Below are positions 5,410 to 21,990 of a DNA stretch of 64,000 bases, piece after piece. How positions within the stretch are numbered: position 1 is the stretch's first letter; the number at the start of each line of letters is the position of its first letter. Source of the stretch: Aquipluma nitroreducens (GTDB lineage Bacteria; Bacteroidota; Bacteroidia; Bacteroidales; Prolixibacteraceae); NCBI RefSeq assembly GCF_009689585.1, contig NZ_AP018694.1, forward strand, positions 4,331,501-4,395,500, given 5' to 3'. A program made the position numbers and the translations under genes. A model generated the notes under the pieces. That model worked only from the letters and a program-made list of their open reading frames with translations. It was not told the origin of the DNA and searched no databases.

Positions 5410-5440
5410 TTGTTTTACTGACCGATCCTTAATACTTTTA
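5410..5440 (+). promoter_or_regulatory. Candidate promoter for the propeller/redox operon
   Basis: TTG at 5410-5412, a 20-bp spacer, then TACTTTTA at 5433-5440, one mismatch from the Bacteroidota TTG-N19-21-TAnnTTTG promoter. The ATG of the first propeller gene follows 25 bp after the -7 box. It is the best promoter candidate in the 5-22 kb region, consistent with it serving the long one-direction gene series. Confidence 0.5.
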
Positions 5441-5464
5441 CAAAAAACAATTTAAGCTGACCCA

Positions 5465-6679
5465 ATGCGACCATTATTTGTCTTTCTGATTTTATTCATT
5501 TCCCTGTCAATTCATGCAAATTCGCAGGATGCCACCCAATGGCGTGGAACTAATTCTTCAGGTATTTACACCGTTGAAAAACTTTTGCCACAATGGACTG
5601 TGGAAGGACCCCATATCCTCTGGTCGTACGCCAGTCTGGGGCAGGGATATTCTTCACCTGCTTTTGCCTACAATAAAATATACATAAATGGAATGGTAGA
5701 TGGGCAGGCAGTGTTGTTTGTGCTTGATCAAAATGGAAAAGAACTTCAGCAATTTAAATACGGGAAAGAGTTTGACGAAAGCTATTCAGGAGTTCGTTCA
5801 ACTCCCACAATTGTTGGCAATCTAGCCTATTTGCTCACAGGTCATGGAAAACTAACCTGCCTCGATCTGAAAACTGGAAAGCCTGTTTGGGTAAAAGATT
5901 TTATTGCTCAATTTGAAGGAGTAAATATTACCTGGGGATACACCGAATCGATATTGGTAGATGGTGATAAACTATATTGTACCCCTGGTGGAAAAAAGAA
6001 CAACGTGATGGCTCTCAATCGCCTGACTGGTGAACCAATCTGGAGCTGTCCCGGGCTAGGCGAATTATCAGCTTATTGCTCACCTTTACTTATTAAATTA
6101 CCCACTCGTCAGTTATTGATTACCCACACAGCTAGCCATGTTTTGGGAATTGATGCCACAACCGGAAAATTACTTTGGAGCTTCGAACATCCCAATCAGT
6201 GGGCCGTTCACCCCAATACTCCGATTTATTCCGATGGTGGATTGTTTGTTTTTAGTGGATATGGACAAGGTGGCGAAAAACTTAAACTGAGCGCCGACGG
6301 AAGTTCAGTCACAAAGGAATGGGAAATTAAGAGTTTTGATAGCCGCATTGGTGGAGCGGTTTTAATTGATGGTTATCTGTATGGATCTGGCGATAAGGAT
6401 CGCAGTTGGCAGTGTATCGATTGGAAAACCGGGGCGCAAAAATATACTTCAACAGAAGTTACCAAAGGTGTTGCCATAGCTGCAAACAAAATGTTGATTG
6501 GTTATTCTGAAAAAGGCGAATTGTTTTTGGCCGATGCCAATCCTTCAGCTTTCAAGGTAATCAGCAAAACAAAAGTGGCGTTGGGAACCGAGCAGCATTG
6601 GGCTCATCCGGTAATTAATAATGGAGTTTTGTACGTGCGTCATGGAAACACACTGATTGCTTATCAGATTTCAGAATAA
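5465..6679 (+). CDS. Exported PQQ-like beta-propeller protein, paralogue 1
   Basis: Secreted beta-propeller of the COG1520 PQQ-like repeat type. Seen: an N-terminal signal peptide (MRPLFVFLILFISLSIHANS, probable cleavage near residue 20), an ATQWRGTNSSG entry motif, then repeated blades ending in Trp-docking motifs (TGKPVW, TGEPIW, TGKLLW), a WGYTES segment and CTPGG. No lipobox. The fold is confident; a PQQ cofactor is not, because the calcium and catalytic Asp/Glu set of true quinoprotein dehydrogenases is not evident and no pqq genes are near. It is the first of three tandem paralogues (with 6730-7968 and 7989-9236) that share WRG and WGxxES motifs. Role in the locus is unknown: a periplasmic scaffold, a sugar-binding protein or an oxidoreductase are possible. 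Confidence 0.82.
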   Translation: MRPLFVFLILFISLSIHANSQDATQWRGTNSSGIYTVEKLLPQWTVEGPHILWSYASLGQGYSSPAFAYNKIYINGMVDGQAVLFVLDQNGKELQQFKYGKEFDESYSGVRSTPTIVGNLAYLLTGHGKLTCLDLKTGKPVWVKDFIAQFEGVNITWGYTESILVDGDKLYCTPGGKKNNVMALNRLTGEPIWSCPGLGELSAYCSPLLIKLPTRQLLITHTASHVLGIDATTGKLLWSFEHPNQWAVHPNTPIYSDGGLFVFSGYGQGGEKLKLSADGSSVTKEWEIKSFDSRIGGAVLIDGYLYGSGDKDRSWQCIDWKTGAQKYTSTEVTKGVAIAANKMLIGYSEKGELFLADANPSAFKVISKTKVALGTEQHWAHPVINNGVLYVRHGNTLIAYQISE

Positions 6680-6729
6680 AGCGATTTTCTAATACTGTCT
6701 TCGATTATCAAATAAACCAACTAAAAAAT

Positions 6730-7968
6730 ATGAAACGAATAAACCTTGCGATTGCATTTCTTTTGTTTGTAGTAATTTCTTTTGCTCAACCAACCCAATG
6801 GCGCGGACCAGAGCGAAGTGGTAAATTTTCGGATACCGGGTTACTGAAAAAATGGCCTGATGCTGGTCCTGAATTAGTACTAAAAGTGGAAGGAATTGGT
6901 AAAGGCTACTCCTCTGTTATTGCTACCGATAAATATATTTTCGCAACCGGAATGATCGATACGCTCGATTATTTATCGTGCATCACTCCTGAAGGCCAAA
7001 TCAAATGGAAAGTGGCTTATGGCCGTTCATGGACCAAATCATTTCCGGAAACTCGCGGATCTGCTACCATTGAAGGCGACCGCGTATATGTGATTAGTGG
7101 AACCGGCCAGTTGGTTTGCCTGAATGTTGAAGATGGGGTCATTCGCTGGAAAGTAAATGTGGACAAGGATTACGAATCAGAATGGCACATTTGGGGCGTT
7201 TCTGAATCACCGCTTATTGTTGATGATAAGGTGATTTGTACGCCCGGCGGAGCAAAAACTTCGGTCGTTGCATTCGATAAAATGACTGGAAAACCTGTAT
7301 GGCAAAGTGCGTCGGTTGGTGGCCCTCGCTGTTATGTGTCGCCAATCATTTATGAATACAAACAATTCCGGTATATTCTGGCTGCTACCGGAACGAATCT
7401 GATCGCGTTAGAACCGGCAACAGGCAAAGTTGTCTGGACTTTCAAATACTGGGATGGCGCCAAATGGGATCAACCTGGTCTGATTTGGGCGAATACTCCG
7501 GTTGTTAAAGGAGCTGATATTTTTCTTTCGATGGGTTACGATTACCGCAATGTAATGTTAACGATGAGTGAAGATGGAAAATCAGTCACCGAAAAATGGA
7601 GCAATTTAGTTCTGGATAATCATCACCACGGCCTCATCGAACTGGATGGATTCATTTATGGTTCGAATTGGGAAAGCAACAGCAAAGGCAAATGGGTTTG
7701 CATGGATTGGAATTCAGGAGCAACAAAATACGAAACAGAATGGTTGACCAAAGGTGAGCTGATTTATGACGATGGTATGTTTTACATTCTGGAAGAAAAA
7801 ACGGGAACCGTTGCTTTGGTGAAACCAAATCCTCAGAGTTTTGAAGTAATCAGTTCATTCAAATTGCAGGGAGGAAACGGTCCTTTCTGGTCGCATCCGT
7901 TCATTGCAAACGGGAAGTTGTATCTGCGGCATGGCGATGTTTTGTTTGTGTATAACATTAAAGCATAA
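6730..7968 (+). CDS. Exported PQQ-like beta-propeller protein, paralogue 2
   Basis: Paralogue of the preceding gene. Seen: signal peptide (MKRINLAIAFLLFVVISFA, cut near residue 19), PTQWRGPERSG, KGYSS, a WGVSES segment followed by CTPGGAKTS, and Trp-docking repeats TGKPVW and TGKVVW. A histidine-rich turn NHHHG near residue 300 is a candidate ligand site that the first paralogue lacks (it has SRIGG), while paralogue 3 has NHIGG, so the loop varies between copies. 412 aa, typical size for a 7- to 8-bladed propeller. Spacing of 50 bp to the upstream gene and 20 bp to the downstream gene supports co-transcription. Enzyme activity is not established by sequence. Confidence 0.82.
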   Translation: MKRINLAIAFLLFVVISFAQPTQWRGPERSGKFSDTGLLKKWPDAGPELVLKVEGIGKGYSSVIATDKYIFATGMIDTLDYLSCITPEGQIKWKVAYGRSWTKSFPETRGSATIEGDRVYVISGTGQLVCLNVEDGVIRWKVNVDKDYESEWHIWGVSESPLIVDDKVICTPGGAKTSVVAFDKMTGKPVWQSASVGGPRCYVSPIIYEYKQFRYILAATGTNLIALEPATGKVVWTFKYWDGAKWDQPGLIWANTPVVKGADIFLSMGYDYRNVMLTMSEDGKSVTEKWSNLVLDNHHHGLIELDGFIYGSNWESNSKGKWVCMDWNSGATKYETEWLTKGELIYDDGMFYILEEKTGTVALVKPNPQSFEVISSFKLQGGNGPFWSHPFIANGKLYLRHGDVLFVYNIKA

Positions 7969-7988
7969 TTTGATATTGGGAGACGATA

Positions 7989-9236
7989 ATGAGGATATTC
8001 ACTATTTTATTGCTGACAATAATTTTCTCGGGCGATCTTTTTTCTCAGGATGTAGTCGAATGGAGAGGACTCAACCGTTCTGGAATTTATCCTGATCAAA
8101 ATCTGCTGAAAAGCTGGCCTGAAAGCGGACCAAAACTTTTGCTGGAACTGGATAAAATTGGGAATGGTTATTCGTCGCCAGTGGTTTATAAAAATACAAT
8201 TTTTGTCACCGGACGTAAAGATACGCTTGATGTGATTTCGGCTTATGAAACGAATGGACAGAAGAAATGGGAAACACCTTACGGTCGGGCTTGGGCACGC
8301 ACTTTTCCTGAAACCCGATGCACGCCCACCATTGAAAATAATCGCATTTATATGGTAAGTGGTATGGGTCAAGTGGTTAGTGTTGATGCTCTTTCCGGAA
8401 AATTGCTTTGGACGGTTGATGCGCAAACTATTTTTAAAGGCGAGCCGCACCGCTGGGGGATTTCCGAATCGGTTGCGATTTCGGATAAGGCCGTTTTCTA
8501 TGTGACTGGTGGCGAAGAAACTTCAGTAATAGCACTAAATAAGGTTGATGGGAAGCTGCTTTGGAAAACCAAAAGCTTAGGCGGAGTTCGTGCCTATGCT
8601 TCCTCTGTAATCATCGAAAAAGCCGGATTGAAACTTTTGTTGGCGCAAACGGCCAATGATTTGATGGCTATAAACATCGAAAATGGAGAAATAGTCTGGT
8701 CTTTCAACCTAGTAAAGTATCATCCCGGAGAAACTGGTAAAGGCGCTAATACCAACACTCCGCTTTATTTTGATAACCAAATTTTTTTGACGAGTGGTTA
8801 TGATCATCCGGCGATCATGTTAACGCTTGCCGACGATGGACGGTCTGTTTCGGTTAAGTGGACCAATCCTGATTTTGATAATCACATTGGTGGTGTAGTA
8901 AAAGTTGGAAATTACATTTTTGGCTCAAATTGGATAACCAATACAACCGGAAATTGGATATGTGCAGATTGGAATACTGGAAAAACCCTTTATGAAACGA
9001 AGTGGTTCAACAAAGGCCCGATCATTTCTGCTGATGGATTTTTGTATTGCTACGAAGAAAAATCGGGGAATCTGGCGCTGGTCAGGCCAAATCCTGAAAA
9101 GTTTGATGTGATCAGTTCATTTAAGATCACAAAAGGTGAAGGTCCGCATTGGGCTCATCCTGCTATTTTTGATGGAAAACTGTTCGTTCGGCATGGCGAA
9201 AGTTTGATGGTTTATGATTTGAAAAATAAAGATTAA
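7989..9236 (+). CDS. Exported PQQ-like beta-propeller protein, paralogue 3
   Basis: Third tandem paralogue. Seen: signal peptide (MRIFTILLLTIIFSGDLFS), VVEWRGLNRSG, NGYSSPVV, WGISES, a TGGEETS segment in place of TPGG, and repeated propeller blades. It aligns end to end by eye with 6730-7968 (for example GPKLLLELDKIGNGYSS against GPELVLKVEGIGKGYSS), so a local gene duplication is clear. The loss of Pro in the TGG motif and a different variable loop suggest functional divergence rather than simple dosage. It ends only 6 bp before the open frame of the membrane-anchored propeller, with the TTTA-loop repeat lying between their coding parts. Confidence 0.82.
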   Translation: MRIFTILLLTIIFSGDLFSQDVVEWRGLNRSGIYPDQNLLKSWPESGPKLLLELDKIGNGYSSPVVYKNTIFVTGRKDTLDVISAYETNGQKKWETPYGRAWARTFPETRCTPTIENNRIYMVSGMGQVVSVDALSGKLLWTVDAQTIFKGEPHRWGISESVAISDKAVFYVTGGEETSVIALNKVDGKLLWKTKSLGGVRAYASSVIIEKAGLKLLLAQTANDLMAINIENGEIVWSFNLVKYHPGETGKGANTNTPLYFDNQIFLTSGYDHPAIMLTLADDGRSVSVKWTNPDFDNHIGGVVKVGNYIFGSNWITNTTGNWICADWNTGKTLYETKWFNKGPIISADGFLYCYEEKSGNLALVRPNPEKFDVISSFKITKGEGPHWAHPAIFDGKLFVRHGESLMVYDLKNKD

Positions 9237-9242
9237 AGTTGA

Positions 9243-10727
9243 TTGAAGCAATATCCTTTGTCGTTCACTTTAGTGAACGGACAGGATGAAAATAATAAAC
9301 AAAAAATCTTGGAAAAGAACATCAAATACATTTTGTGGAGCATTGGGGCAGTTTTGCTGATCCTCTTTTTCTGGTGGCTGATGAAAGATCCGACCAGTCA
9401 GTTCGCAGAAAGTATTCCTGGCGCTGACAATCGTGGTGCAGACTCAGCTAGTGTTGGCCCACTGGTAAAAATCGGGGAAAACTTTCAGGTTTTTGGTACT
9501 TCATCTTCAAACCTGAAAGGAACATGGACCCGATTCCGTGGCGCTGATTACGACAACATTGTTAAAAATTCGGTACCTCTCAAAAATTCATGGGCTGGCA
9601 ACGATCCCGAAATTAAATGGTCGGTTGAATTGGGCGAAGGCCATGCCGGACCAGCCATTTACGAAGGTAAAGTGTATGTGATGGATTATGATGAGGCCAA
9701 ACGTGAAGATGCTTTACGGTGTTTTTCAATTGAAGATGGGAAAGAACTTTGGCGACGTTCGTACAATGTGAGCCTGAAACGTAACCACGGAATGTCACGA
9801 ACGGTTCCTGCTGTTAATGCCGATTATATCCTTACCATTGGGCCACGATGCCACGTGATGTGCGTGAAGCGCGAAACAGGCGATCTGGTATGGGGGCTCG
9901 ACATGGTTCAGCAATACCAGACAGAAGTGCCTCTGTGGTTTACCGGTCAATGTCCAATGATCGATGGCAACAAAGCAATTCTGGCTCCTGGCGGAACTTC
10001 AGTTATGATTGCTGTGGATATGGCAACAGGCAAAGTTTTGTGGGAAACGCCGAATCCGGGTGGAATAAAAATGTCGCATTCGTCCATTATGCCCTGGACA
10101 CTGAATGGCAAGAAAATGTATGTATATAGTGCTGTTGGCGCTGTTATAGGTGTTTCTGCCGAAGGTGCTGATGAAGGAAAAATCCTTTGGCAGTCAACTG
10201 CTTGGAATCATGCGGTAGTTGCTCCTGCTCCTGTCTGTTTCCCTGATGGAAAAGTGTTTTTAACCGCTGGCTATGGTGCCGGAAGTATGATGATCAAAGT
10301 AACTCCTTCGGGAGGCGAATATAAAGTGGAAGTTTTGAAACAATATCTCCCCAAAGAAGGAATGGCCTGCGAACAGCAGACTCCTGTTATTTGGGACGGA
10401 AAGATGCTCGCAATTGAGCCAAAAGATGCCGGACCACTGCGTAATCAGTTGATTTGTGTTGACCCTTCAGATGTCACCAAAGTAATTTGGACTTCAGGAA
10501 AAGATGGTCGTTTTGGCCTTGGCCCTTACTTAATTGCTGATAACAAAATGTTTGTGCTAAGCGATGATGGAACGCTGACTATGATAAAACCCGAAGGTAA
10601 AAAGTACATTCAGTTGGCTCAGAAAAAACTGTTCGATGGGCAGGATGCATGGGCTCCAATGGCTTTGGCTGATGGTTTTTTATTGTTGCGTGATGCGAAA
10701 AAGATGTACTGTGTAAAAGTAAATTAA
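9243..10727 (+). CDS. Membrane-anchored PQQ-like beta-propeller (start uncertain)
   Basis: A propeller domain (about residues 95-494) anchored by one N-terminal transmembrane helix (YILWSIGAVLLILFFWWLM, about residues 30-48), with the propeller probably on the periplasmic face. Seen: WTRFRGADYDN entry motif, LAPGG, TGKVLW and repeated blades. The start is a problem. The open frame begins at a TTG (9243) but its first 15 codons are only the translation of a palindromic repeat, and no ATG is available before the helix in this frame. An ATG at 9286 in the neighbouring frame would enter the correct frame if the A6 run at 9301-9306 had one more A, giving MKIINKKILEKN before the helix. A TTG at 9309 is another option. 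See findings. Confidence 0.75.
   Translation: MKQYPLSFTLVNGQDENNKQKILEKNIKYILWSIGAVLLILFFWWLMKDPTSQFAESIPGADNRGADSASVGPLVKIGENFQVFGTSSSNLKGTWTRFRGADYDNIVKNSVPLKNSWAGNDPEIKWSVELGEGHAGPAIYEGKVYVMDYDEAKREDALRCFSIEDGKELWRRSYNVSLKRNHGMSRTVPAVNADYILTIGPRCHVMCVKRETGDLVWGLDMVQQYQTEVPLWFTGQCPMIDGNKAILAPGGTSVMIAVDMATGKVLWETPNPGGIKMSHSSIMPWTLNGKKMYVYSAVGAVIGVSAEGADEGKILWQSTAWNHAVVAPAPVCFPDGKVFLTAGYGAGSMMIKVTPSGGEYKVEVLKQYLPKEGMACEQQTPVIWDGKMLAIEPKDAGPLRNQLICVDPSDVTKVIWTSGKDGRFGLGPYLIADNKMFVLSDDGTLTMIKPEGKKYIQLAQKKLFDGQDAWAPMALADGFLLLRDAKKMYCVKVN
9253..9287 (+). repeat. TTTA-loop palindromic repeat, copy 1
   Basis: Core hairpin CGTTCAC-TTTA-GTGAACG (9262-9279), flanked by ATCCTTTGT and GACAGGAT. Member of a six-copy family with a conserved TTTA loop and a stem that differs in sequence between copies but stays paired. 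It lies directly before the membrane propeller coding sequence. Confidence 0.7.
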
Positions 10728-10732
10728 TCGCG

Positions 10733-11698
10733 ATGAACCGGAAACTCGTAAATATCGTATTGATCGTTCTGGCTTTAGCTATTGTGGTCGTCATTGGAAA
10801 AGACTTTATCGGGAAAAAGGCCGGGAAAAATATAGATAATCCATATGAATATAACATCGATGAATTCCGGAAAGTGGATTCCACCCAAATTTTATATACG
10901 GAGAAGCTTCATTTTCCGGTTAAAGCTCATTATTGGGCAGGCATTGCGGCAACTGATTCAACCATTATTGTGGCGAGCGCCAATCACTTACTTAAATTCG
11001 ATTATTCCGGCAATCAGATTTTCAGTAAACAAATCATTGATACGGCAACTTGCGTAACCGTTGATTCGAATCGCCAGATTTGGATCGGGATGAGCCATTA
11101 TGTGGTGATGTACGATCAGAATGGTACCTTGGTAAAACGCTGGAATTCGTTTGGCGACCGGGCTGTATTTACCTCGATTACGGTTTCAGGTGAAAATGTT
11201 TATGTGGCCGATGCCGGAAACCGGATCGTTTATCAGTGCAATACCAATGGGCAGATTGTTCAGAAAATAGGGGAGAAGGACGAACAAAAGGGAATACCCG
11301 GATTCGTGATTCCAAGTCCCTATTTCGATGTAGCAACTGATGATAATGGCATTTTGTGGGCGGCAAATACAGGCCGGCATACATTCGAAAATTACAATAG
11401 GGATGGCTCGCTCCGAACATCTTGGGGTGTGACAAGTTTCAAGATTGAAGGTTTTAGTGGTTGCTGTAATCCGGCGCATTTCGCAATTTTGAACGATAAT
11501 TCGTTTATAACCAGTGAAAAAGGTATGCCTCGTATCAAATTGTACGATCAGCACGGACAATTTATTGGAGTTGTGGCGCCTCCTGCGGCTTTCAGCGGTT
11601 CATTGGCTCCCGATATTGCAGTAGATGAGCAACAGCGTGTGATTGCTCTTGATTTTGAACGTCAGCAGGTACGAATTTTTGAAAAGAAAAAAGAATAA
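10733..11698 (+). CDS. Membrane-anchored NHL/SMP-30-like beta-propeller
   Basis: A 321-aa protein with an N-terminal signal anchor (LVNIVLIVLALAIVVVIG, about residues 4-21) and a six-bladed-type propeller. Repeated blade ends such as VTVDSNRQIWIG, YVADAGNRIVYQCNTNGQIV and ATDDNGILWAANTGRH resemble NHL or SMP-30/gluconolactonase repeats rather than the PQQ-like type of its neighbours. A GFSGCCNPAHFA motif with adjacent Cys residues is a possible metal or cofactor site. Start ATG is 5 bp after the stop of the preceding propeller gene, so the two are almost certainly co-transcribed. The likely location is the outer face of the inner membrane. Substrate or partner unknown. Confidence 0.75.
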   Translation: MNRKLVNIVLIVLALAIVVVIGKDFIGKKAGKNIDNPYEYNIDEFRKVDSTQILYTEKLHFPVKAHYWAGIAATDSTIIVASANHLLKFDYSGNQIFSKQIIDTATCVTVDSNRQIWIGMSHYVVMYDQNGTLVKRWNSFGDRAVFTSITVSGENVYVADAGNRIVYQCNTNGQIVQKIGEKDEQKGIPGFVIPSPYFDVATDDNGILWAANTGRHTFENYNRDGSLRTSWGVTSFKIEGFSGCCNPAHFAILNDNSFITSEKGMPRIKLYDQHGQFIGVVAPPAAFSGSLAPDIAVDEQQRVIALDFERQQVRIFEKKKE

Positions 11699-11873: not shown

Positions 11874-12086
11874 ATGAAAGAGAATACAACCAACAGACGT
11901 GATTTTTTCAGGAAAGTAGCACAACTTACTTTTCTTTCGGCAATGGTGGGAGGTTCAGCTTATTTGCTGGCCAAAGACAGGGTGCAGTTGGATGGTTGTG
12001 CTGATAATCAATTTTGTAAAAAATGCCAGAAACTAACGACTTGCTCGTTGGACAAGGCAAAGAAATATCAGGAAAATGAGCGATAA
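11874..12086 (+). CDS. Tiny twin-arginine protein with four cysteines
   Basis: Not a family I recognise. A 70-aa protein with a twin-arginine signal (NRRDFFRKVAQLTFL, RR at 8-9, then a hydrophobic stretch to about residue 32) and a short mature part carrying four Cys in the order C42-x5-C48-x2-C51-x5-C57. Tat export implies that it folds, probably around a cofactor, before transport or travels with a folded partner. The four Cys could hold one iron-sulfur cluster or another metal. Its last 11 bp overlap the start of the Tat polyferredoxin gene, which indicates translational coupling and a shared role. A small maturation factor or an electron-carrier subunit of the NapGH-like complex is plausible. 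Confidence 0.65.
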   Translation: MKENTTNRRDFFRKVAQLTFLSAMVGGSAYLLAKDRVQLDGCADNQFCKKCQKLTTCSLDKAKKYQENER

Positions 12087-12681
12087 AAAAGAACCAAAAA
12101 GCATAGAAAGGCGTCGGTTTCTCCGAAGCGGAATGCAGATGGCGCTGGCTGTTTCGCTCGGTGGCGTAGCCGGTGTTTCGCTCCTGAAATCGACTTCGAA
12201 GGATTTGGTCTGGCAGATCGATCCGTTTAAATGCGTGCAATGCGGTCGTTGCGCCGACGAATGCGTGATGACTCCTTCGGCCGTAAAATGTGTTCATGCC
12301 TACGATTTGTGCGGCTATTGCGATTTATGTGGTGGTTACTTAAAACCCGATGCGAATGCTCGTACTACGGCTGCCGAAAATCAGCTTTGTCCTACCGCTG
12401 CTATTAAGCGGCAATATATCGAAGAACCCTACTTTGAGTATGTGATTGATGAAAGCCTGTGCATAGGCTGTGCCAAGTGCGTGGCTGGTTGCACTTCATT
12501 CGGAAATGGTTCGCTGCATTTGCAGGTGAGACACGATCAATGTAAAAATTGCAACGACTGTTCGATTGCAAGGGTTTGTCCGGCGGACGCTTTTCAGCGT
12601 GTTCCGGCCGATACACCATACATGATTAAGGGCGGATTTACGAAAGGTGGAACGAATAAGGATAATTTGAAGAAAGGATAG
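12076..12681 (+). CDS. Tat-exported NapG-like polyferredoxin
   Basis: Periplasmic 4x[4Fe-4S] ferredoxin. Seen: a twin-arginine signal (ERRRFLRSG, residues 11-19) followed by a hydrophobic stretch; cluster motifs C53-C56-C59-C63, C79-C82-C85 with C72 and C105-Pro, C129-C132-C135-C139, and C156-C159-C162-C168-Pro. This cluster count, the Tat signal and the partner gene at 13190 match NapG, which with NapH passes electrons from menaquinol to periplasmic reductases. No nitrate reductase gene is nearby, so the electron partner here must be something else. 201 aa. It overlaps the upstream tiny Tat protein by 11 bp. Confidence 0.85.
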   Translation: MSDKKEPKSIERRRFLRSGMQMALAVSLGGVAGVSLLKSTSKDLVWQIDPFKCVQCGRCADECVMTPSAVKCVHAYDLCGYCDLCGGYLKPDANARTTAAENQLCPTAAIKRQYIEEPYFEYVIDESLCIGCAKCVAGCTSFGNGSLHLQVRHDQCKNCNDCSIARVCPADAFQRVPADTPYMIKGGFTKGGTNKDNLKKG

Positions 12682-14596: not shown

Positions 14597-16456
14597 ATGA
14601 ACATCTCAAAAAGCGATAAAATCAAACTGGCGCAGCGCATTGCCTGGATTGCAGCTGGATTTGCACTGATCATGGCGGTTTTGCTGATTGCCAACTTTGC
14701 GCAAACAAAGTTGAACAAACCCATTGACAACAAAACCATTCCGGAGCTTGTCAAACGGCTCAGCGAAAATCCGGGCGACGAAACGTTGAAAACGGAGATT
14801 CGTGCATTCGATCTGATGGCAAGGAAAGCCTATTTTACCAGTCAATGGCAAATCCGCACAGGTATCTACCTGATGTTTTTTGGAGTAATCATTTCGATTT
14901 TGGCGATACGCTATATTTTGGCTGCAAAATCGAAACTGAACGAAATTGATAGTGTCGAAAAAGTGAATGAACTGGACAAATTGGTGGCGCAAAAATGGGT
15001 CATTTATGTTGGTTCAGGATTAATTGTGATTGCGCTTGGTTCCGGATTTCTGGCTTCCAATTCACTCAAAGATTACATGGTGAATGAAAATATTGCTGTT
15101 CAGGAAGAAAAACCTGTTGAAACAGCCGTTGATCCAGCAATTCAGGAACAGGCTAGTACTCCGGTCGATCAAGCTGCTTCAGTTGCTGTCCCAACAACCA
15201 CAGAGAATGTTGCCCCGTCAAATGTTCCTGCTGAAACTACAGATGCTGCTGTTGTTCCTGCAGTCGCCGTAGCTGCAAAACCTGCCGGATTACCAACTCA
15301 GGCAGAATTGAAAGCCAATTATCCTTTTTTCCGTGGGCCGCAAGGTGATGGAGTTGCTTTTCAGAAAAATACGCCAACCGACTGGAATGGTGCCGGTGGT
15401 AAAAATGTAATCTGGAAAGTTAAAATTCCGAAAGCGGGGTTCAGCTCGCCGATTATTTGGGGAAATCAGTTATTTGTTACTGGTGCTGATGCTCAGTCGC
15501 GGGTGGTTTATTGCTACGATAAAACTTCAGGTAAATTACTCTGGGAAGCTGCCGCTGACAACATCGAAGGTTCACCGGCCAAAATGCCAAAAGTAACTGC
15601 CGATACTGGGTTGGCGGCTCCAACAATGGCTACCGATGGCCGATCTGTGTTTGCCATTTTCGCCACCGGCGATGTAATTGCCCTTGATATGACCGGAAAA
15701 CGTTTGTGGGCTCGCAATTTGGGTGTTCCGGATAATCACTACGGTCACGGCTCATCTCTAATAGTTTATAAAGACAAATTGTTGATTCAATACGATACCA
15801 ACAAGTCAGGAAAATTAATTGCATTAGACGCACAGACTGGAACAACTGCCTGGGAAACAGCCAGGAATTCAAAAATTTCATGGTCTTCACCAATATTAGT
15901 CAATACCGGAAGCCGCACTGAAGTAATCCTGACCACCAATCCGAATGTGAATGGTTACGACCCTCAAACAGGCAAGGAACTTTGGAACATTGCTTGTCTT
16001 TCCGGAGAAGTTGGGCCATCAGCCGGCTATGCCGACGGAATGGTGTTTGCCGCCAACGAATATGCCAAATTAGTAGGAATAAAAATTGGTGGTGGAACTC
16101 CTGAAATTGTCTGGGAAGCCGATGAGTTTTTGCCGGAAGTTTCGAGTCCTATGGCAGTAAACGGGCTTTTGTTTATCGCGACGACTTATGGCGTTTTGGC
16201 CTGTTACGATGCCAAAACCGGTACCAAAAACTGGAGTCAGGAATATGGCGATGCCTTTTATTCGTCACCGGTTTATGCCGATGGAAAAGTTTACATTACT
16301 GACATGACAGGTAAAACGCATATTGTAAAAGCATCCAAAGATTATCAGCTAATCGGAACTCCCGAATTGGGTGAGAAAGCGGTTTGCTCGCCTGTTTTCC
16401 AAGATGGAAGGGTGTATTTACGAGGGATGAATAATCTGTATTGTCTGGGTAAATAG
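14597..16456 (+). CDS. Polytopic membrane protein with PQQ-like beta-propeller
   Basis: A 619-aa protein with three N-terminal transmembrane helices (about residues 13-34, 86-107 and 133-153), an Ala/Pro/Val/Thr-rich flexible linker (about 160-240) and a PQQ-like propeller (about 245-619). Seen in the propeller: YPFFRGPQGDG entry motif, FSSPIIW, TGKLLW, TGKELW and GLLFIATTYGVLACYDAKTG (quoted to 20 residues). The linker length would let the propeller reach across the periplasm to the Tat and NapH-like proteins encoded upstream. The architecture (helices, low-complexity linker, propeller) differs from the secreted paralogues. PQQ binding is not established. It is preceded by TTTA-loop repeat 2 and followed by repeat 3. 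Confidence 0.8.
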   Translation: MNISKSDKIKLAQRIAWIAAGFALIMAVLLIANFAQTKLNKPIDNKTIPELVKRLSENPGDETLKTEIRAFDLMARKAYFTSQWQIRTGIYLMFFGVIISILAIRYILAAKSKLNEIDSVEKVNELDKLVAQKWVIYVGSGLIVIALGSGFLASNSLKDYMVNENIAVQEEKPVETAVDPAIQEQASTPVDQAASVAVPTTTENVAPSNVPAETTDAAVVPAVAVAAKPAGLPTQAELKANYPFFRGPQGDGVAFQKNTPTDWNGAGGKNVIWKVKIPKAGFSSPIIWGNQLFVTGADAQSRVVYCYDKTSGKLLWEAAADNIEGSPAKMPKVTADTGLAAPTMATDGRSVFAIFATGDVIALDMTGKRLWARNLGVPDNHYGHGSSLIVYKDKLLIQYDTNKSGKLIALDAQTGTTAWETARNSKISWSSPILVNTGSRTEVILTTNPNVNGYDPQTGKELWNIACLSGEVGPSAGYADGMVFAANEYAKLVGIKIGGGTPEIVWEADEFLPEVSSPMAVNGLLFIATTYGVLACYDAKTGTKNWSQEYGDAFYSSPVYADGKVYITDMTGKTHIVKASKDYQLIGTPELGEKAVCSPVFQDGRVYLRGMNNLYCLGK

Positions 16457-16467: not shown

Positions 16468-16500
16468 ATATGCCTGTTGGCTTTAGCTGACGGACAGGAT
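16468..16500 (+). repeat. TTTA-loop palindromic repeat, copy 3
   Basis: Contains GTTGGC-TTTA-GCTGAC with two G-T pairs, flanked by CCT and AGG. It sits 18 bp before the GTG start of the NuoE-NuoF fusion. Same orientation relative to the downstream gene as copies 1, 2, 4 and 5. Confidence 0.65.
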
Positions 16501-16517
16501 AATAAATAAAACAAAAA

Positions 16518-18875
16518 GTGAGCGAATCAAAAAACATACAACAAACCGTTGACGATATTATCGCTGAAAAAGGGGTGAAAGGAAAGTCCGTCATTCCAAT
16601 TTTGCAGGCGATTCAAAATACATACAATTATCTTCCGGAGGAAGCCTTGAAATACGTCTGCAAAAAAACTGAAATCACCCCGGAACAGATTGTAGGAGTG
16701 GCTTCGTTTTATTCGCAGTTCCGAATGCAACCTGTTGGTGAGCACATCATCAAAGTCTGTGTTGGAACTGCTTGCCATGTGAAAGGCGCCGGGCAGGTTT
16801 ACGATGCTTTTCGTCGTCATTTTAACCTGACTGGGCACGAAGAAACGGATGCTTCGCGAAAATATACCATCGAAAAAGTATCGTGTCTCGGTTGTTGTAC
16901 CTTGGCTCCGGTGGTTCAGATCGATGAAATTACTTACGGGCATGTGGCTTCAGACAAAGTTGGAAATGTACTGGCCGATTTCGAGAAGCATGCCGGAATT
17001 TCGAGTAGTAAAAAAGGACTTTTCAGAAATGTTGACGGAGAAGAAATTCAGGGCGAAATCCGATTGGGGTTGGGTTCTTGCTGTGTAGCTTCAGGAAGTG
17101 AAGATGTAAAAAAGGCGGTTGAGGAAACAATTGCCGACACCGGAATTCATATCAGTCTGAAAAATGTCGGATGCGTTGGTATGTGTCATCAGGTTCCATT
17201 GGTCGAAATTATTCCAAAGGGTGGAAAATCAATTTTGTATGCCAAGGTAAAACCCGAAGAAATACAGGGGATTATTGCCAACCATTTTAAACCTCAAAGT
17301 ACTTTTGGAATGCTGAAAAGTAGCGTTTATAAGTTCTTTGAAAGCGTGCAGACCGATACGGTTTGGGATGGCGTAAAGCAATATTCGATTGATGCCCGCG
17401 AAAAGGCGGTGTCCGATTTTCTGGATCGCCAAATCCCGATTGCAACGCAATACCGTGGAATTATCAATCCGCTTGATCTGGAAGAATACAAAAAGCACGA
17501 GGGCTTCGAGGCCATGAAAACCTGTTTGTTCGATCTTTCTCCGGAAAAGATTATTGAAACCATTAAAGACAGCGGTTTGCGGGGAAGGGGAGGAGCTGGT
17601 TTCCCGACAGGGATGAAATGGGATTTGGTGGCTTATAATCATTCGGATGTAAAATACCTGATTGTCAATGGTGATGAGGGCGACCCGGGAGCATTTATGG
17701 ATCGGATGTTGCTCGAATCGTATCCGTACCGGGTAATCGAGGGCGCTGTTATTGCTGCTAAGGCGGTTGGTGCCACGCAGGGATTTTTCTACATACGTGC
17801 CGAATACCCTTTGGCCGTAAAACGGATTCGTCAGGCACTGGTTTATTGTAGGGAAAATAATTACCTCGGCGAAAATATTTTGGGAAGCGGATTCTCATTC
17901 GATATGACCATTTATGAAGGGGCTGGCGCTTTCGTGTGCGGCGAAGAATCGGCCATGATGGCTTCTATAGAAGGAGAGCGTGGTTTCCCGCGTATTCGTC
18001 CTCCGTTTCCTGCAGTGAGTGGCTTGTGGAAGCAGCCTACACTGATCAACAATACCGAAACTTTTGCGCAAGTCTCCTACATCATTCGCGAAGGATCAGC
18101 TAAATTTGCTGGCATCGGAAGTGAAAAGAGCAAAGGCACAAAGGTATTTGCATTGGCTGGAAAGGTGAATCGGGGTGGATTGATTGAAGTACCGATGGGA
18201 ATTACCGTTCGTCAGATTGTGGAAGAAATTGGCGGCGGTGTTCAGAATGGCAAAAAATTTAAAGCGGTGCAAATTGGTGGGCCTTCCGGAGGTTGTGTCC
18301 CTGCTGAGTTGTACGATACGCCAATCGATTACGAATCGCTCCTGAAAGTTGGCGCGATGATGGGTTCTGGTGGTTTGGTTGTATTGGACGAAGATGATTG
18401 CATGGTAGATATTGCCCGCTATTTTCTGTCTTTCACGCAAAACGAATCCTGCGGAAAGTGCACGTTCTGCCGGGTCGGAACCAAACGAATGCTTGAAATC
18501 CTGAATAAGATCACTTCAGGTAAAGGAAAGTTACAGGATTTGGATGAATTGGAATACCTTGCAAGCTGGACTAAAAAAGGAAGTTTGTGTGGATTGGGAA
18601 AATCAGCTCCAAATCCAATTCTATCGACGCTGAAATATTTCAGGGAAGAATATCTGGCTCACATCAATGGCAAATGCCCATCGGGTAAATGTCAAAGCCT
18701 GATTAAATATCAGATCAACGATTTGTGCATCGGCTGTACTAAATGTGCACAGAAATGCCCAACCGAAGCCATTCTGTTTAAGCCGCACGAAAAGCACGAA
18801 GTTATTACTGATCTTTGTATCAAGTGTGATGCCTGCCGTGTAGTTTGCCCGGTTGATGCGGTGGAGATCGTTTGA
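16518..18875 (+). CDS. NuoE-NuoF (HydC-HydB type) fusion, NADH-linked flavin/Fe-S protein
   Basis: Cytoplasmic 785-aa fusion. Domains: NuoE/HydC thioredoxin-like [2Fe-2S] domain (1-165; C81, C86, C123, C127); a second thioredoxin-like [2Fe-2S] domain (about 180-260; C188/C189, C219, C223), as at the N-terminus of HydB; NuoF core with NADH/FMN motifs RGRGGAGFPTG (355-365), GDEGDPGAFMDR (385-396) and GAGAFVCGEE (468-477), and its [4Fe-4S] ligands C645, C648, C651, C691; and a C-terminal two-cluster ferredoxin (C737-C740-C743-C747, C767-C770-C773-C777). HydB-like proteins occur in flavin-based bifurcating complexes, but no hydrogenase subunit is present here. GTG start follows repeat copy 3 and is supported by the NuoE domain beginning right behind it. 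Probable partner: the flavoprotein at 19452. Confidence 0.9.
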   Translation: MSESKNIQQTVDDIIAEKGVKGKSVIPILQAIQNTYNYLPEEALKYVCKKTEITPEQIVGVASFYSQFRMQPVGEHIIKVCVGTACHVKGAGQVYDAFRRHFNLTGHEETDASRKYTIEKVSCLGCCTLAPVVQIDEITYGHVASDKVGNVLADFEKHAGISSSKKGLFRNVDGEEIQGEIRLGLGSCCVASGSEDVKKAVEETIADTGIHISLKNVGCVGMCHQVPLVEIIPKGGKSILYAKVKPEEIQGIIANHFKPQSTFGMLKSSVYKFFESVQTDTVWDGVKQYSIDAREKAVSDFLDRQIPIATQYRGIINPLDLEEYKKHEGFEAMKTCLFDLSPEKIIETIKDSGLRGRGGAGFPTGMKWDLVAYNHSDVKYLIVNGDEGDPGAFMDRMLLESYPYRVIEGAVIAAKAVGATQGFFYIRAEYPLAVKRIRQALVYCRENNYLGENILGSGFSFDMTIYEGAGAFVCGEESAMMASIEGERGFPRIRPPFPAVSGLWKQPTLINNTETFAQVSYIIREGSAKFAGIGSEKSKGTKVFALAGKVNRGGLIEVPMGITVRQIVEEIGGGVQNGKKFKAVQIGGPSGGCVPAELYDTPIDYESLLKVGAMMGSGGLVVLDEDDCMVDIARYFLSFTQNESCGKCTFCRVGTKRMLEILNKITSGKGKLQDLDELEYLASWTKKGSLCGLGKSAPNPILSTLKYFREEYLAHINGKCPSGKCQSLIKYQINDLCIGCTKCAQKCPTEAILFKPHEKHEVITDLCIKCDACRVVCPVDAVEIV

Positions 18876-18907
18876 GTTACGGGTTGCGTGATACGGGTTA
18901 CGAGTTG
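18874..18907 (+). repeat. GTTACGGGTTGCG-type repeat, upstream of the IVP gene
   Basis: Begins in the stop codon of the NuoE-NuoF gene. Contains CGGGTTGCGTGATACGGG, an 18-bp exact match to a segment in front of hemN (59661-59722). The related, inverted copy lies on the other side of the four-helix-bundle gene (19397-19441). Confidence 0.65.
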
Positions 18908-19013
18908 TCGGTCGCAAAGATTGTAGTTAAAATGATTTGGTAGTCATATAATGAGAATATTGATAATATTTTTTTTTAAATAATTAGTGATGAGTTTTTT
19001 ATCCGAAGCTTGA

Positions 19014-19027
19014 AACTCGCAACAATT
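19014..19027 (+). repeat. 14-bp direct repeat, left copy
   Basis: AACTCGCAACAATT, 7 bp before the ATG of the four-helix-bundle gene. The identical 14 bp recur at 19432-19445, 6 bp before the ATG of the next gene, so the two copies bracket one gene unit of 418 bp. Confidence 0.75.
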
Positions 19028-19034
19028 AAGAAAT

Positions 19035-19412
19035 ATGAACAACTACAAGGATCTTGATATTTACAACCTGTCTTACCGATTGGCAATCGATGTTCATAAA
19101 ATGACAATGACATTGCCTAAATATGAGCTTTATGAGCAAGGAAGTCAGGTTCGAAGATCATCAAAAAGCATTAAAGATAATGTTGCTGAAGGTTTTGGCA
19201 GAAGAAGGTATAAAGATGAATTTGTTCGCTTTCTGGTTTTTGCGCATTCATCATGTGATGAAGCAATTTCGCAATTGACGATGATCAATGAAATCTATTT
19301 TGAAAATAAAGACTTAAACAATTTACTTGAGGAGTATGAAGTTTTGGGTGCTAAAATCAATAAGTTTATTCAGTATGTCGAAGAAAACTGGAAATCAACT
19401 CGTAACCCATAA
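19035..19412 (+). CDS. Four-helix-bundle protein (23S rRNA IVP / bAvd-like family)
   Basis: A 125-aa helical protein of the S23/IVP family, which is encoded in intervening sequences of some 23S rRNA genes and as free genes across Bacteroidota; the accessory variability protein of diversity-generating retroelements has the same fold. Seen: YKDLDIYNLSYRLAIDVH, then LYEQGSQVRRSSKSIKDNVAEG with RRSS and the conserved N-x-AEGFGRR, then a C-terminal helix ending KFIQYVEENW. No retroelement reverse transcriptase or 23S rRNA is in the window. It sits between two flavoprotein genes and is bracketed by a 14-bp direct repeat and by inverted GTTACGGG-type repeats, so it looks like an inserted cassette. 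Its function as a free gene is not known to me. Confidence 0.87.
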   Translation: MNNYKDLDIYNLSYRLAIDVHKMTMTLPKYELYEQGSQVRRSSKSIKDNVAEGFGRRRYKDEFVRFLVFAHSSCDEAISQLTMINEIYFENKDLNNLLEEYEVLGAKINKFIQYVEENWKSTRNP

Positions 19413-19441
19413 CCCGCAACTCGAATCACGTAACTCGCAAC
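19397..19441 (+). repeat. GTAACCCGCAACTCG-type repeat, downstream of the IVP gene
   Basis: Starts within the last codons of the four-helix-bundle gene (AACTCGTAACCC...) and runs to the leader of the next gene. It is related to the repeat at 18874-18907 in inverted orientation. Confidence 0.6.
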
Positions 19442-19445
19442 AATT
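19432..19445 (+). repeat. 14-bp direct repeat, right copy
   Basis: AACTCGCAACAATT, identical to 19014-19027 and placed 6 bp before the ATG of the flavoprotein gene, as if the leader of this gene had been duplicated when the four-helix-bundle cassette entered. Confidence 0.75.
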
Positions 19446-19451
19446 TTTTAA

Positions 19452-21014
19452 ATGATAAAATTAACCATAGATAATCGCTCCGTTGAAGTTCCTTCCGGCA
19501 CTTCAGTCTGGCAGGCAGCACAGTCGGCTGGAATTGAGATTCCGACCATGTGCTATTTGGAGGGAACGGAGCATTTCACCTCGTGCATGATTTGCCTGGT
19601 GAAAGACGCTAAGAACGGACGTTTTTTTGCATCCTGTTCCACACCTGTCTTTGAAGGTCAATCCATTATTACTAATGATGAGGAAACCATCGAATCGCGG
19701 AAAGCAGCGCTTGAGTTGCTTTTGAGCGAACATGTTGGCGACTGCGAGGCTCCGTGCCAATTGGTTTGTCCGGCTCACATGAATATTCCGTTGATGAACC
19801 GACTGATTGCCAAAGGTGATTTTGCTAAGGCGCTGGAAGTGGTAAAGCGCGACATTGCATTACCTTCTATTTTGGGCCGAATTTGTCCTGCACCGTGCGA
19901 ATCTGGTTGTCGCCGTAAACAGGTTGACGAAGCAGTTTCAATTTGTTTGCTGAAACGATTTGTAGGCGACGAAGATTTGAAAAGTGAAAAACCGTATAAG
20001 CCGCAACTGGCCAAACTTTCAGGCAAAAAAGTAGCTGTTATTGGCGCTGGCCCAGCCGGATTGGCTGCGGCTTATTATTTGCAGATTAAAGGGCATCAGG
20101 CTGTAGTTTTTGACAAGAATGATCGTGCCGGCGGCGAATTGTTACAGATTGATAAGCAACTATTACCTGCTGAAATCATTGATCAGGAAGTAGCTCAAAT
20201 AGTTGCAAAAGGAGTTCAGCTTCGGTTGAATGAAACGATTAATGAGTTTCGGTTTTTAGAATTACAGAAGGAGTTTGATGCAGTTGTCGTAGCCTTTGGG
20301 GCAGTTAAAGAAGATACGTACGATTACGGATTACGGACTAACAACACCGGAGTCATTGCTGATAAAACCAGTTACCAGACCTCGATTCCGAATGTTTTTG
20401 CTGTCGGAAATTCTGTCAGGTATTCAAAAATGGCGGTTCGCTCGGTCGGGCAGGGAAAAGAAGTGGCAACTGTGATCGATAATTATTTTAAGACTTCAGA
20501 AATAAAGGGTTACCCAGAGCGGTTTAATTCCAAATTTGGAAGATTGGCTGAGTCTGAATTTATTCAATATCAAAAGGATTCGGAAAATGCACCGCGACAA
20601 AAAGCTGATCAATCTGGATTTACTAAAGAAGCAGCAATCCGTGAAGCCAAACGCTGTATGCACTGCGATTGCCGCAATCCGGAATCGTGTGTATTGCGCG
20701 AATTGTCTGACCGTTATCATGCTGAACAAAAGAGATTTCAGGGCGAAAAACGGTTTGATGTAGAAAAATTCATTCACCGCGAAGGAATTGTTTACGAACC
20801 TTCAAAGTGCATCAAATGTGGCATTTGTGTCCGTTTGACCCGGAATCATCAGGAAGAATTTGGATTTACATTTATTGGCCGTGGGTTCGATGTAAAAGTA
20901 GGTGTGCCGTTTAACGAAAGCGTTCAGAAAGGATTAGAAAAAACTGCATCAATTGTTGCCAAAGCTTGTCCAACGGGTGCACTTGCCATGTATAATAATG
21001 AGGAACAAATCTAA
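19452..21014 (+). CDS. [2Fe-2S]/GltD-like flavoprotein lacking the NAD(P) domain
   Basis: A 520-aa cytoplasmic electron-transfer flavoprotein. Order: NuoG-type [2Fe-2S] domain (1-80; C34, C45, C48, C62); GltD/NfnB N-terminal [4Fe-4S] helical domain (about 95-165; C98, C102, C106, C145, C149, C153); FAD Rossmann motif VAVIGAGPAG (194-203); second FAD segment NVFAVGNSV (314-322); C-terminal Fe-S region (about 400-510) with CMHCDC (402-407) and a hydrogenase-style CIKCGIC...GFIGRGFD-like block (453-480) plus C506-Pro. In GltD/NfnB about 280 residues separate the two FAD motifs and include an NAD(P)H-binding domain; here only about 110 do, so that domain is absent. The usual Gly-Asp of the second motif is Gly-Asn. 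It resembles the GltD-like subunit of Stn/Nfn transhydrogenases, but without the nucleotide site. Probable partner of the NuoE-NuoF fusion. Confidence 0.85.
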   Translation: MIKLTIDNRSVEVPSGTSVWQAAQSAGIEIPTMCYLEGTEHFTSCMICLVKDAKNGRFFASCSTPVFEGQSIITNDEETIESRKAALELLLSEHVGDCEAPCQLVCPAHMNIPLMNRLIAKGDFAKALEVVKRDIALPSILGRICPAPCESGCRRKQVDEAVSICLLKRFVGDEDLKSEKPYKPQLAKLSGKKVAVIGAGPAGLAAAYYLQIKGHQAVVFDKNDRAGGELLQIDKQLLPAEIIDQEVAQIVAKGVQLRLNETINEFRFLELQKEFDAVVVAFGAVKEDTYDYGLRTNNTGVIADKTSYQTSIPNVFAVGNSVRYSKMAVRSVGQGKEVATVIDNYFKTSEIKGYPERFNSKFGRLAESEFIQYQKDSENAPRQKADQSGFTKEAAIREAKRCMHCDCRNPESCVLRELSDRYHAEQKRFQGEKRFDVEKFIHREGIVYEPSKCIKCGICVRLTRNHQEEFGFTFIGRGFDVKVGVPFNESVQKGLEKTASIVAKACPTGALAMYNNEEQI

Positions 21015-21033
21015 ACTACCTAAATACCATTCT

Positions 21034-21990
21034 ATGAAAACCACTTTAAGTATTGTTTGTATTCTGTTGTTGTCGCTTTCTTCGGAAGCGAAAATAAAAG
21101 TACTCATTGTTGACGGCCAGAATAATCACGAGGTTTGGCCCAAATCTACGATCATGATGAAACAGTATCTGGAAGAAACAGGTTTGTTTTCGGTAGACAT
21201 CAAACGCACAAAGTTTACCTGGATGGGCGAACGGGAAAAAGATTATCTGCCATTGGCCGGTGTGGGCGAAACACAAGATTTGAAAGAGCCAAAAACTGAT
21301 CCGGATTTTGTTTTGTCGTTCAAAAAATACGATGTGGTCGTTTCTAATTTTGGTTGGCGAGCTGCCGATTGGCCCGAAGCTACACAAAAAGCTCTTGAAA
21401 AATTTATGAAGGATGGTGGCGGTTTTGTTTCGGTACATGCTGCTGATAACTCGTTCCCAAACTGGTTGGAGTATAACAAAATGATTGGCCTTGGTGGTTG
21501 GGGCGACCGGACCGAAAAAGATGGGCCGTATGTTTATTATTCCAACGATGGCGAATTGGTTCGCGATACTTCGCCAGGTAGCGCCGGAGCGCATGGGCCA
21601 CAACATATCATTCCGGTTACCATTCGTGTGGCCGACCATCCAATTACAAAAGGGTTGCCTAAGGTTTGGTTAACAGCTAAGGACGAATGTTATGCAAAAT
21701 TACGTGGTCCGGGTGAGAACATGATCATTCTGGCTACCGGAAAAGATATGTCGGGAAAAGCTCCAACCGACAGAAACGAGCCTATGCTTATGGCGTTGAC
21801 TTATGGAAAAGGCCGTATTTTTCATACTACCCTTGGGCACGACGATTATTCATGCGAAAGTGTAGGATTCATCACTACTTTTTTGCGTGGAGTTGAATGG
21901 GCGGCAACCGGTAAAGTTACGCAGGCTGTTCCCTCTGATTTTCCTACTGCAGAAGAGTCAACCATCAGAAAATTTGTGCTGAAAAAATAA
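21034..21990 (+). CDS. Exported ThuA-like protein
   Basis: A 318-aa secreted protein of the ThuA family (class-I glutamine-amidotransferase-like fold linked to sugar, especially keto-sugar, metabolism). Seen: signal peptide (MKTTLSIVCILLLSLSSEA), KIKVLIVDGQNNHEVW, GGGFVSVHAADNSF (position of the amidotransferase nucleophile turn, here with no Cys), AHGPQHIIPV, DHPITKGLPKVW and the C-terminal GKGRIFHTTLGHDDYS typical of the family. The open frame extends upstream to a TTG inside the preceding gene, but the ATG at 21034, 19 bp after that gene's stop, is followed directly by a good signal peptide and is preferred. As last gene of the series it hints at a carbohydrate substrate for the locus; this is inference. 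Confidence 0.85.
   Translation: MKTTLSIVCILLLSLSSEAKIKVLIVDGQNNHEVWPKSTIMMKQYLEETGLFSVDIKRTKFTWMGEREKDYLPLAGVGETQDLKEPKTDPDFVLSFKKYDVVVSNFGWRAADWPEATQKALEKFMKDGGGFVSVHAADNSFPNWLEYNKMIGLGGWGDRTEKDGPYVYYSNDGELVRDTSPGSAGAHGPQHIIPVTIRVADHPITKGLPKVWLTAKDECYAKLRGPGENMIILATGKDMSGKAPTDRNEPMLMALTYGKGRIFHTTLGHDDYSCESVGFITTFLRGVEWAATGKVTQAVPSDFPTAEESTIRKFVLKK

Follow-up and report, generated by a model that had tools for sequence, protein, structure and literature searches.

A candidate Bfu-family enzyme with a predicted transmembrane third partner in Aquipluma nitroreducens and its relatives

What could connect a series of exported beta-propeller proteins to cytoplasmic flavoproteins of the NuoEF type is the question raised by a locus in the genome of Aquipluma nitroreducens (5.71 Mb, one contig), which lies in the stretch of 64,000 nucleotides (nt) analysed here (G000:C1:4331501-4395500; hereafter the window, in whose numbering gene coordinates are given). 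A first, sequence-only reading had listed between 5,410 and 21,990 four propellers of the pyrroloquinoline quinone (PQQ) type, an NHL propeller, two proteins with twin-arginine translocation (Tat) signals, a NapH-like protein, a membrane propeller, a NuoE-NuoF fusion, a GltD-like flavoprotein and a ThuA-like protein, and had proposed a redox locus reaching from outside the cytoplasmic membrane into the cytoplasm. Our analysis found all of these genes on the + strand, at 5,465-21,990, where the core genes described below also lie, as do the partner genes further along the same strand, and the locus can be kept as a unit, its genes co-occurring, mostly contiguously, across three lineages. The NuoEF/GltD flavoproteins are present as announced but are not generic NAD(H) flavoproteins, being a Bfu-type core and a domain-reduced BfuA. 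We propose, with about even confidence, that its product is a Bfu-family enzyme bound to the membrane and made of an NADH/ferredoxin core (BfuCB), a BfuA wire, a NapH-NapG conduit and outer propellers.

The BfuCB gene (16518..18875) encodes a BfuC part (NuoE) fused to a BfuB part (2Fe-2S, NuoF, two 4Fe-4S), giving a protein of 785 aa with a NuoE domain, a second thioredoxin-like 2Fe-2S stretch, the FMN/NuoF domain, an SLBB domain, the NuoF 4Fe-4S domain and two further 4Fe-4S motifs; the Pfam models Complex1_51K and NADH_4Fe-4S both match it. According to passages of Schut et al. (2022, PMC9304861), the Bfu family has as its basis a BfuBC core that carries the clusters B1-B5 and C1; in B2 a His is present in virtually all BfuB, and a variable position is occupied by Cys, or by Thr in about two thirds. 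All 63 BfuCB sequences compared keep the ligands of B1 (C645, C648, C651, C691) and of B2 (C628, H715, C720, C725, the diagnostic His included), the B2 positions having been matched to the published ones by spacing and by alignment with 9n5u_B; the variable position, 666, is T in 43, C in 13, R in 4 and S in 2 of them, with one not listed. The Cys residues of the C-terminal 4Fe-4S pair B3/B4 are present in 61-63 of the 63 sequences, those of the B5 region in 59-62 and those of the C1 2Fe-2S cluster in 59-60. The top PDB match of BfuCB is NfnB (9n5u_B, E 7.6e-212), followed by other HydB-type subunits. Since the ligand positions are kept and the closest structures are of the HydB/NfnB type, the fusion is, judged by its sequence, a Bfu-type core related to HydABC and StnABC. 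Additional sets of BfuB/NuoE-like genes were seen at two other places in the same genome (G000:C1:5625445-5629976 and 3570333-3574886), one of them with a 1045-aa frame that also has a GltD-like part.

BfuA (19452..21014) consists of a 2Fe-2S part, a GltD-like FAD domain and C-terminal 4Fe-4S motifs. Its nearest solved relatives include Nfn/Stn-type subunits, and it aligns with 9bov_A and 9n5u_A in pieces, the NAD(P)-binding region being skipped. In StnABC, as passages of PMC10482914 describe it, that domain is the entry point of NADPH, and a linear iron-sulphur (Fe-S) chain runs to the core; here the domain is missing in 101 of 102 BfuA sequences. An NADP transhydrogenase was rejected, the BfuA of the window having no nucleotide domain. 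The FAD domain and its motif are kept in 77 of the 102 sequences, whereas the domain is excised in 7 and degenerate in 1 (L179), 17 being unclear to the test. The excised proteins, of 341-366 aa, still have the 2Fe-2S part at the N-terminus and the 4Fe-4S motifs at the C-terminus. In the BfuCB tree they come from at least four separate branches (L209 with L213; L189; L198; L203 with L204), the supports of the nearest nodes being 0.96-1.0. L209 and L213 belong to Bacteroidota, and L194, the sister of L189, carries a full-size BfuA; the excision in L212 is not clearly separate from that of L209 and L213 (support 0.4) and may group there. Several Cys of the GltD domain, judged from the sequences, are lost as well in L198, L203 and L204. 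The simplest reading of these sequences would be a stepwise loss, the nucleotide domain going first and the FAD domain later. Because the NAD(P) domain and sometimes the FAD domain are lost and the Fe-S parts kept, BfuA most likely acts as an electron wire rather than as a transhydrogenase.

The membrane partner that we propose for BfuA is the NapH-like Fe-S protein (13190..14467), in which Pfam Fer4_5 matches two stretches and 15 Cys are invariant in 48 of 48 aligned rows, 8 of them within two ferredoxin motifs. Its topology, drawn from hydropathy and the helix pattern with a model of moderate quality (predicted local distance difference test, pLDDT, 70.7), would put C102, C104 and C198 outside and leave the CX3CP pairs on the inner side with the ferredoxin motifs. 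The NapG-like ferredoxin (12076..12681, 201 aa, Pfam Fer4 families) has a Tat-type start and 16 Cys invariant in 41 of 41 rows; the genome encodes TatC. Overlapping the NapG gene by 11 nt is that of smTat (11874..12086), a 70-aa Tat-type protein with the pattern C-x5-C-x2-C-x5-C, which was found beside NapG as a separate gene in 50 and fused in 3 of the 81 cases examined, one further case having too little sequence.

In the proposed enzyme BfuCB would be the soluble bifurcating core, with NAD(H) reacting at FMN and ferredoxin at the C-terminal 4Fe-4S pair, ferredoxin being predicted as the third party because a Bfu-type core is combined with a BfuA devoid of the nucleotide domain. For BfuA, an Fe-S wire that would have lost its NADP(H) role, the most likely docking site is the ferredoxin domain of NapH on the cytoplasmic side; NapH would then pass electrons through the membrane to the Tat-type proteins NapG and smTat. 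Three membrane-anchored proteins encoded by core genes, PQQ4 (9243..10727), the NHL propeller (10733..11698) and PQQ5 (14597..16456), would form the outer part of the complex, with the acceptor or donor site. Electrons would somewhat more likely flow outward than inward, NADH and reduced ferredoxin being confurcated to a low-potential periplasmic acceptor. The conserved series extends beyond the genes first listed to 33,837, with the exported BamB-like propeller PQQ6 (25592..26719; Pfam Beta-prop_ACSF4, 219.6 bits), a GT4-type glycosyltransferase (26856..28148; Glyco_trans_1_4), a LolD-like ABC ATPase (28293..28964; TIGR02211 247.9 bits, below the cut-off of 307.75) and an FtsX-like ABC permease of 1077 aa (30604..33837; Pfam FtsX 49.7 bits), conserved partners that are probably involved in envelope assembly or trafficking of the complex.

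PQQ4, a BamB-like propeller (Pfam PQQ_2 67.6 bits) whose start codon is uncertain, the open reading frame (ORF) tool having picked a TTG, was aligned in 14 rows with relatives 39-89% identical to it, and R180-N181-H182-G183, S185-R186-T187, Q236-C237, H279 and R483-D484 are invariant; its AlphaFold model (pLDDT 81.5) has BamB as top PDB matches, with tetrathionate hydrolase and a quinoprotein sorbose dehydrogenase ranking further down. The NHL protein (Pfam NHL, with an N-terminal anchor) has a vicinal pair, Cys244-Cys245 in GCCNP, invariant in 44 of 44 sequences, and PQQ5 has three N-terminal transmembrane-like segments by hydropathy, followed by a propeller (PQQ_2 104.1 bits). CXXCH was looked for in 16 proteins of the window and found in none. 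The cut-off of the quinoprotein propeller model PF01011 (26.7) is passed by PQQ1, PQQ3, PQQ5 and PQQ6, PQQ2 falling below it and PQQ4 not being listed, but TIGR03075 is far under its own cut-off, with 24-74 bits against 480 for PQQ1, PQQ4, PQQ5 and PQQ6; on these scores PQQ binding by the propellers is left unsupported, and neither is PQQ dehydrogenase activity supported. A search of the genome for pqqC gave no match, as did the control genomes.

These residues bear on a reversed version of the scheme, in which a sugar, a sulphur compound or another donor near -400 mV would be oxidised in the periplasm and its electrons would pass through NapG, NapH and BfuA to a Bfu core that bifurcates them to NAD+ and ferredoxin. 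Bfu enzymes are reversible and mid-potential donors suit them, according to passages of PMC9304861, the invariant polar or Cys residues of PQQ4 and the NHL protein are of the active-site type, and the structural resemblance of PQQ4 to the hydrolase and the sorbose dehydrogenase agrees with such a reaction. The sugar-derived reaction suggested at first would fall under it. Nonetheless, no dehydrogenase was recognised among the cluster genes, and ThuA, from which the hint of sugar came, is not conserved, its gene following BfuA in only 10 of the 61 loci that have sufficient sequence downstream, so that a ThuA or sugar link was rejected; inward flow therefore appears unlikely. Outward flow is somewhat more likely, since the named cultured carriers of the cluster, fermentative or facultatively anaerobic, need an outlet for NADH and ferredoxin; culturable carriers are found in Sunxiuqinia, Mariniphaga and Maribellus.

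A further possibility is that NapH is a menaquinone oxidoreductase through which the Bfu core couples the quinone pool with NADH and ferredoxin, the periplasmic proteins being a scaffold or a side branch. Some of the literature holds that NapH-like proteins accept quinol electrons in certain cases, and the Nuo-Bfu proposed in passages of PMC9304861 would be a precedent. How strictly the periplasmic genes are retained was assessed by a profile recount over 70 named loci (73 minus the distant L143, L144 and L145), only those with enough sequence being counted each time; the profiles for these counts, the survey of Planctomycetota-class regions, the BfuA domain test and the BfuCB tree all derive from this one family of loci. 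Upstream of BfuA, BfuCB was found in 57 of 62 loci, PQQ5 and NapH each in 46 of 52, NapG in 46 of 51, the NHL gene in 45 of 51 and PQQ4 in 30 of 38. NapG, the NHL protein and PQQ5 are missing about as rarely as NapH itself, and scaffolding alone explains them poorly, which makes this quinone-linked enzyme, too, rather improbable. Downstream of BfuA the counts were 50 of 58 for PQQ6, 41 of 53 for the glycosyltransferase, 37 of 47 for the ABC ATPase and 32 of 44 for the ABC permease; the misses include loci of Planctomycetota and KSB1-labelled genomes, where this module can sit upstream.

The closest named relatives at the locus are metagenome-assembled genomes of Prolixibacteraceae (the BfuA of L093 is 93% identical), and the system extends well beyond them. 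It had been stated that homologues scattered through genomes and never found together would speak against a common system; they were instead found together, and mostly contiguous, in the taxonomic order to which A. nitroreducens belongs, in one class of Planctomycetota and in KSB1-labelled genomes. The core order PQQ4-NHL-(smTat)-NapG-NapH-PQQ5-BfuCB-BfuA is seen again in records from Bacteroidota, from Planctomycetota and from genomes labelled KSB1, and PQQ6, the glycosyltransferase, the LolD-like ATPase and the FtsX-like permease often accompany it. NapG was matched in 42 of 150 genomes (E <= 1e-40) of the class that includes G582, from which the Phycisphaerales record L133 comes, and in 18 of 82 genomes (E <= 1e-60) of the phylum of the KSB1-labelled G585. 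Thirty-six of the 42 Planctomycetota-class NapG regions were examined at length, BfuCB being present in 31 and the ABC permease gene in 17; of the five without BfuCB, three run into the end of a contig, unlike L201 and L205. Where BfuA is split from the rest, NapG is still present in 7 of 8 genomes (L126, L134, L079, L082, L084, L087 and L124; not L080), and in L079, L084 and L087 the part from PQQ4 to BfuCB is whole on another contig.

This conservation bears on the idea that BfuCB and BfuA form an ordinary soluble transhydrogenase of the Nfn/Stn type that merely lies beside a periplasmic operon. The Nfn/Stn-type subunits among the nearest solved relatives of BfuA, and a second nucleotide-type domain in one divergent sequence (L207, below), are in its favour. 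A gene order held across phyla, the persistence of NapG in split clusters and the absence of the NAD(P) domain from 101 of 102 BfuA, and of the FAD domain from some, make it very improbable.

Some observations on the split loci stand apart. In L079, L080, L082, L084 and L087 BfuCB is absent from the stretch examined, NapG being on a different contig in four of these five genomes, and haem-biosynthesis-like genes, recognised by eye from L084, lie upstream of BfuA. In the KSB1-labelled phylum a cysteine-desulfurase-like gene, again judged by eye, occurs near or directly after BfuA (L126, 13310-14461; L128, 11627-12751).

Co-occurrence was surveyed in 295 genomes of the order to which A. nitroreducens belongs. 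BfuA matches at 1e-50 occur in 123 of them, mostly as frames of about 1,200 aa; the short BfuA, scored at E < 1e-96, was found in 38 and the NHL protein in 42 (46 less four weak partial matches in G316, G426, G493 and G530). Both are present in 36 genomes, BfuA only in 2, NHL only in 6 and neither in 251 (Fisher p 1.5e-37, not corrected for relatedness), and in the 26 of the 36 pairs that share one contig they lie 6.2-8.7 kb apart. The 2 BfuA-only cases sit on contigs of just 5.3 and 7.4 kb, and inspection of the 6 NHL-only genomes showed BfuA to be present in G381, G401 and G480 and the sequence to stop at contig ends in G350 and G476, G455 being the remaining exception. In 285 sampled genomes from the rest of the class, no full-length match to the short BfuA was obtained among the first-look candidates scored. 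That unrelated operons are neighbours by chance, an idea to which the local insertions interrupting the series in the window lend some colour, is hardly conceivable given co-occurrence in 36 of 38 genomes, the narrow spacing and the same order in other phyla. A replacement of Rnf was also considered and, as a simple substitution, ruled out from the distribution of rnfA, which is above the cut-off in 238 of the 295 genomes; the genome of the window has one weak match (1.2e-50), and 14 of 44 genomes with BfuA or NHL show, by eye, no rnfA match below 1e-60.

Several findings weigh against the membrane-bound Bfu enzyme as we propose it. The BfuA of L207 (14465-16456 of that locus), a divergent locus of the Planctomycetota class, keeps an insert of about 106 aa at the position of the NAD(P) domain, a second nucleotide-type domain, and perhaps preserves the system as it was ancestrally. 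The FAD domain is retained in most BfuA, so its FAD may react with some other partner, and the separation of BfuCB from the paralogues of its own genome has a support of 0.47 (FastTree, 99 sequences). For NapH, a search with the model returned no structural match at E 0.001, solved relatives cover the ferredoxin part only, and the scores of 49.6 bits with TIGR02163 and 44.6 with NF007013 compare with cut-offs of 213.05 and 234. The smTat pattern was unmatched next to 27 of the 81 NapG, and L201 and L205 carry NapH with Bfu genes absent from the stretch examined, where NapH possibly has alternative electron partners. At the outer end, no terminal periplasmic enzyme with a familiar active site was recognised among the cluster genes, and the preference for outward flow is a matter of reasoning only. 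In L201, a NapG fused to smTat and PQQ5 were seen to accompany NapH.

With respect to known systems, the proposed enzyme shares with described Bfu enzymes the BfuBC core with B1-B5, C1 and the FMN domain, and a separate BfuA feeding the third substrate, but BfuC and BfuB are fused, BfuA nearly always lacks the nucleotide domain, and a NapH/NapG membrane conduit and propellers are predicted. The plan of BfuA, a NuoG-like 2Fe-2S part followed by a GltD-like part, is that of StnABC/Nfn-Bfu in passages of PMC10482914, from which the near-universal loss of the NADP(H)-binding domain and the FAD excision or degeneration set it apart. Like NapGH, the conduit combines a transmembrane protein having two Fer4_5 stretches with a Tat-type Fe-S protein; unlike NapGH, its NapH scores far below the curated cut-offs, no Nap reductase occurs among the genes scanned and the partner is of the Bfu type. 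Passages of Meheust et al. (2021, PMC8238504) describe flavinylated systems with a NapH-like modular transmembrane electron carrier, but the cytoplasmic partner here is a Bfu-type core, and no FMN-binding domain or ApbE was matched by Pfam among the 30 proteins covered (window 36-39617, not every small ORF included). PQQ1-6 share the propeller fold of BamB and PQQ quinoproteins, whereas PQQ1, PQQ4, PQQ5 and PQQ6, those tested, are below the quinoprotein subfamily cut-offs and the structures nearest to PQQ4 are BamB. No description of the gene set was recognised in the open-licence literature searched, as consulted in part, which included PMC11406978 and had the supplements of Schut et al. outside it, in agreement with the initial claim that no described system matches. 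The third substrates of Bfu enzymes named in passages of PMC9304861 are, as we interpret them, cytoplasmic or at the level of quinone; its main text, in the version consulted, has no word beginning NapH, PQQ or periplasm, and it leaves 17 clades without function, to one of which the BfuCB of the cluster may belong. What is most likely new, as far as gene content can tell, is a Bfu enzyme with a predicted transmembrane third partner.

As to the rest of the window, the series opens with a variable-number group of exported BamB-like propellers, PQQ1 (5465..6679; Pfam PQQ_2 81.5 bits, with a signal-like N-terminal segment), PQQ2 (6730..7968; 76.6 bits) and PQQ3 (7989..9236; 82.3 bits). A dedicated promoter had been placed ahead of them, at 5,410-5,440; it was rejected, the region holding 29 sigma-70-like sites against 36.0 in shuffles, and the Bacteroidota-type promoter pattern occurring in the window 4 times against 4.0 expected, none of them there. 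The gaps are 50 nt between PQQ1 and PQQ2, 20 between PQQ2 and PQQ3, 6 between PQQ3 and PQQ4, 5 between PQQ4 and NHL, 175 between NHL and smTat, 129 between NapH and PQQ5, 61 between PQQ5 and BfuCB and 19 between BfuA and ThuA, rising to 508 and 576 nt at the two sites with inserted genes. These interrupting genes, both missed at first, are an ORF6N gene between NapG and NapH (12688..13200, +; Pfam ORF6N), matched there in some close relatives only, and a four-helix-bundle gene (19035..19412, +; TIGR02436 97.4 bits) flanked by 28-nt inverted repeats, 86% complementary, in an element (18880..19423) that we take to resemble mobile elements of the intervening-sequence type. Together with the ThuA-like gene (20953..21990, +, probable start 21034; Pfam ThuA), present in close relatives only and outside the core, they are local additions to the cluster. 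A homologue of the four-helix-bundle gene lies at the BfuCB-BfuA junction in 11 relatives as well, and the ORF6N gene, a RhuM gene (28961-29956) and a DUF1697 gene (29959-30507) are inserted singly at cluster junctions, which look like an insertion hotspot; similar junctions in other relatives, judged by eye, have transposase-like or GxxExxY-like genes. Between ThuA and PQQ6, at 22198-25566, lies a gene for a protein of 1122 aa that combines GH18, polysaccharide deacetylase and GT2 domains; of the loci listed, just L093 and L097 have a match in that position. At 36-3703 consecutive ADP-ribosylglycohydrolase, nucleoside hydrolase and ureide-permease-like genes perhaps form a nucleoside-use operon.

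To our knowledge, no Bfu enzyme with an extracytoplasmic third substrate of such a kind has been described. We would tentatively suggest, at somewhat less than even odds, that the cluster specifies a bifurcating enzyme with its third substrate on the outer side of the cytoplasmic membrane. Such an all-Fe-S device, free of haem, would wire the NADH and ferredoxin pools directly to an active site in periplasmic propellers (PQQ4 and the Cys-Cys NHL protein), and would be so old that Bacteroidota, Planctomycetota and KSB1-labelled bacteria have it in common. The linkage of ferredoxin and NADH to the periplasm is usually credited to Rnf, Nqr or cytochromes; if the proposal is true, a Bfu-type core with a transmembrane Fe-S conduit would be an anaerobe route between the two, genes annotated as "PQQ-like", "4Fe-4S binding" and "NuoEF-like" in Bacteroidota and Planctomycetota would gain a function, and the role of unassigned Bfu clades would become testable in the culturable genera that carry the cluster.

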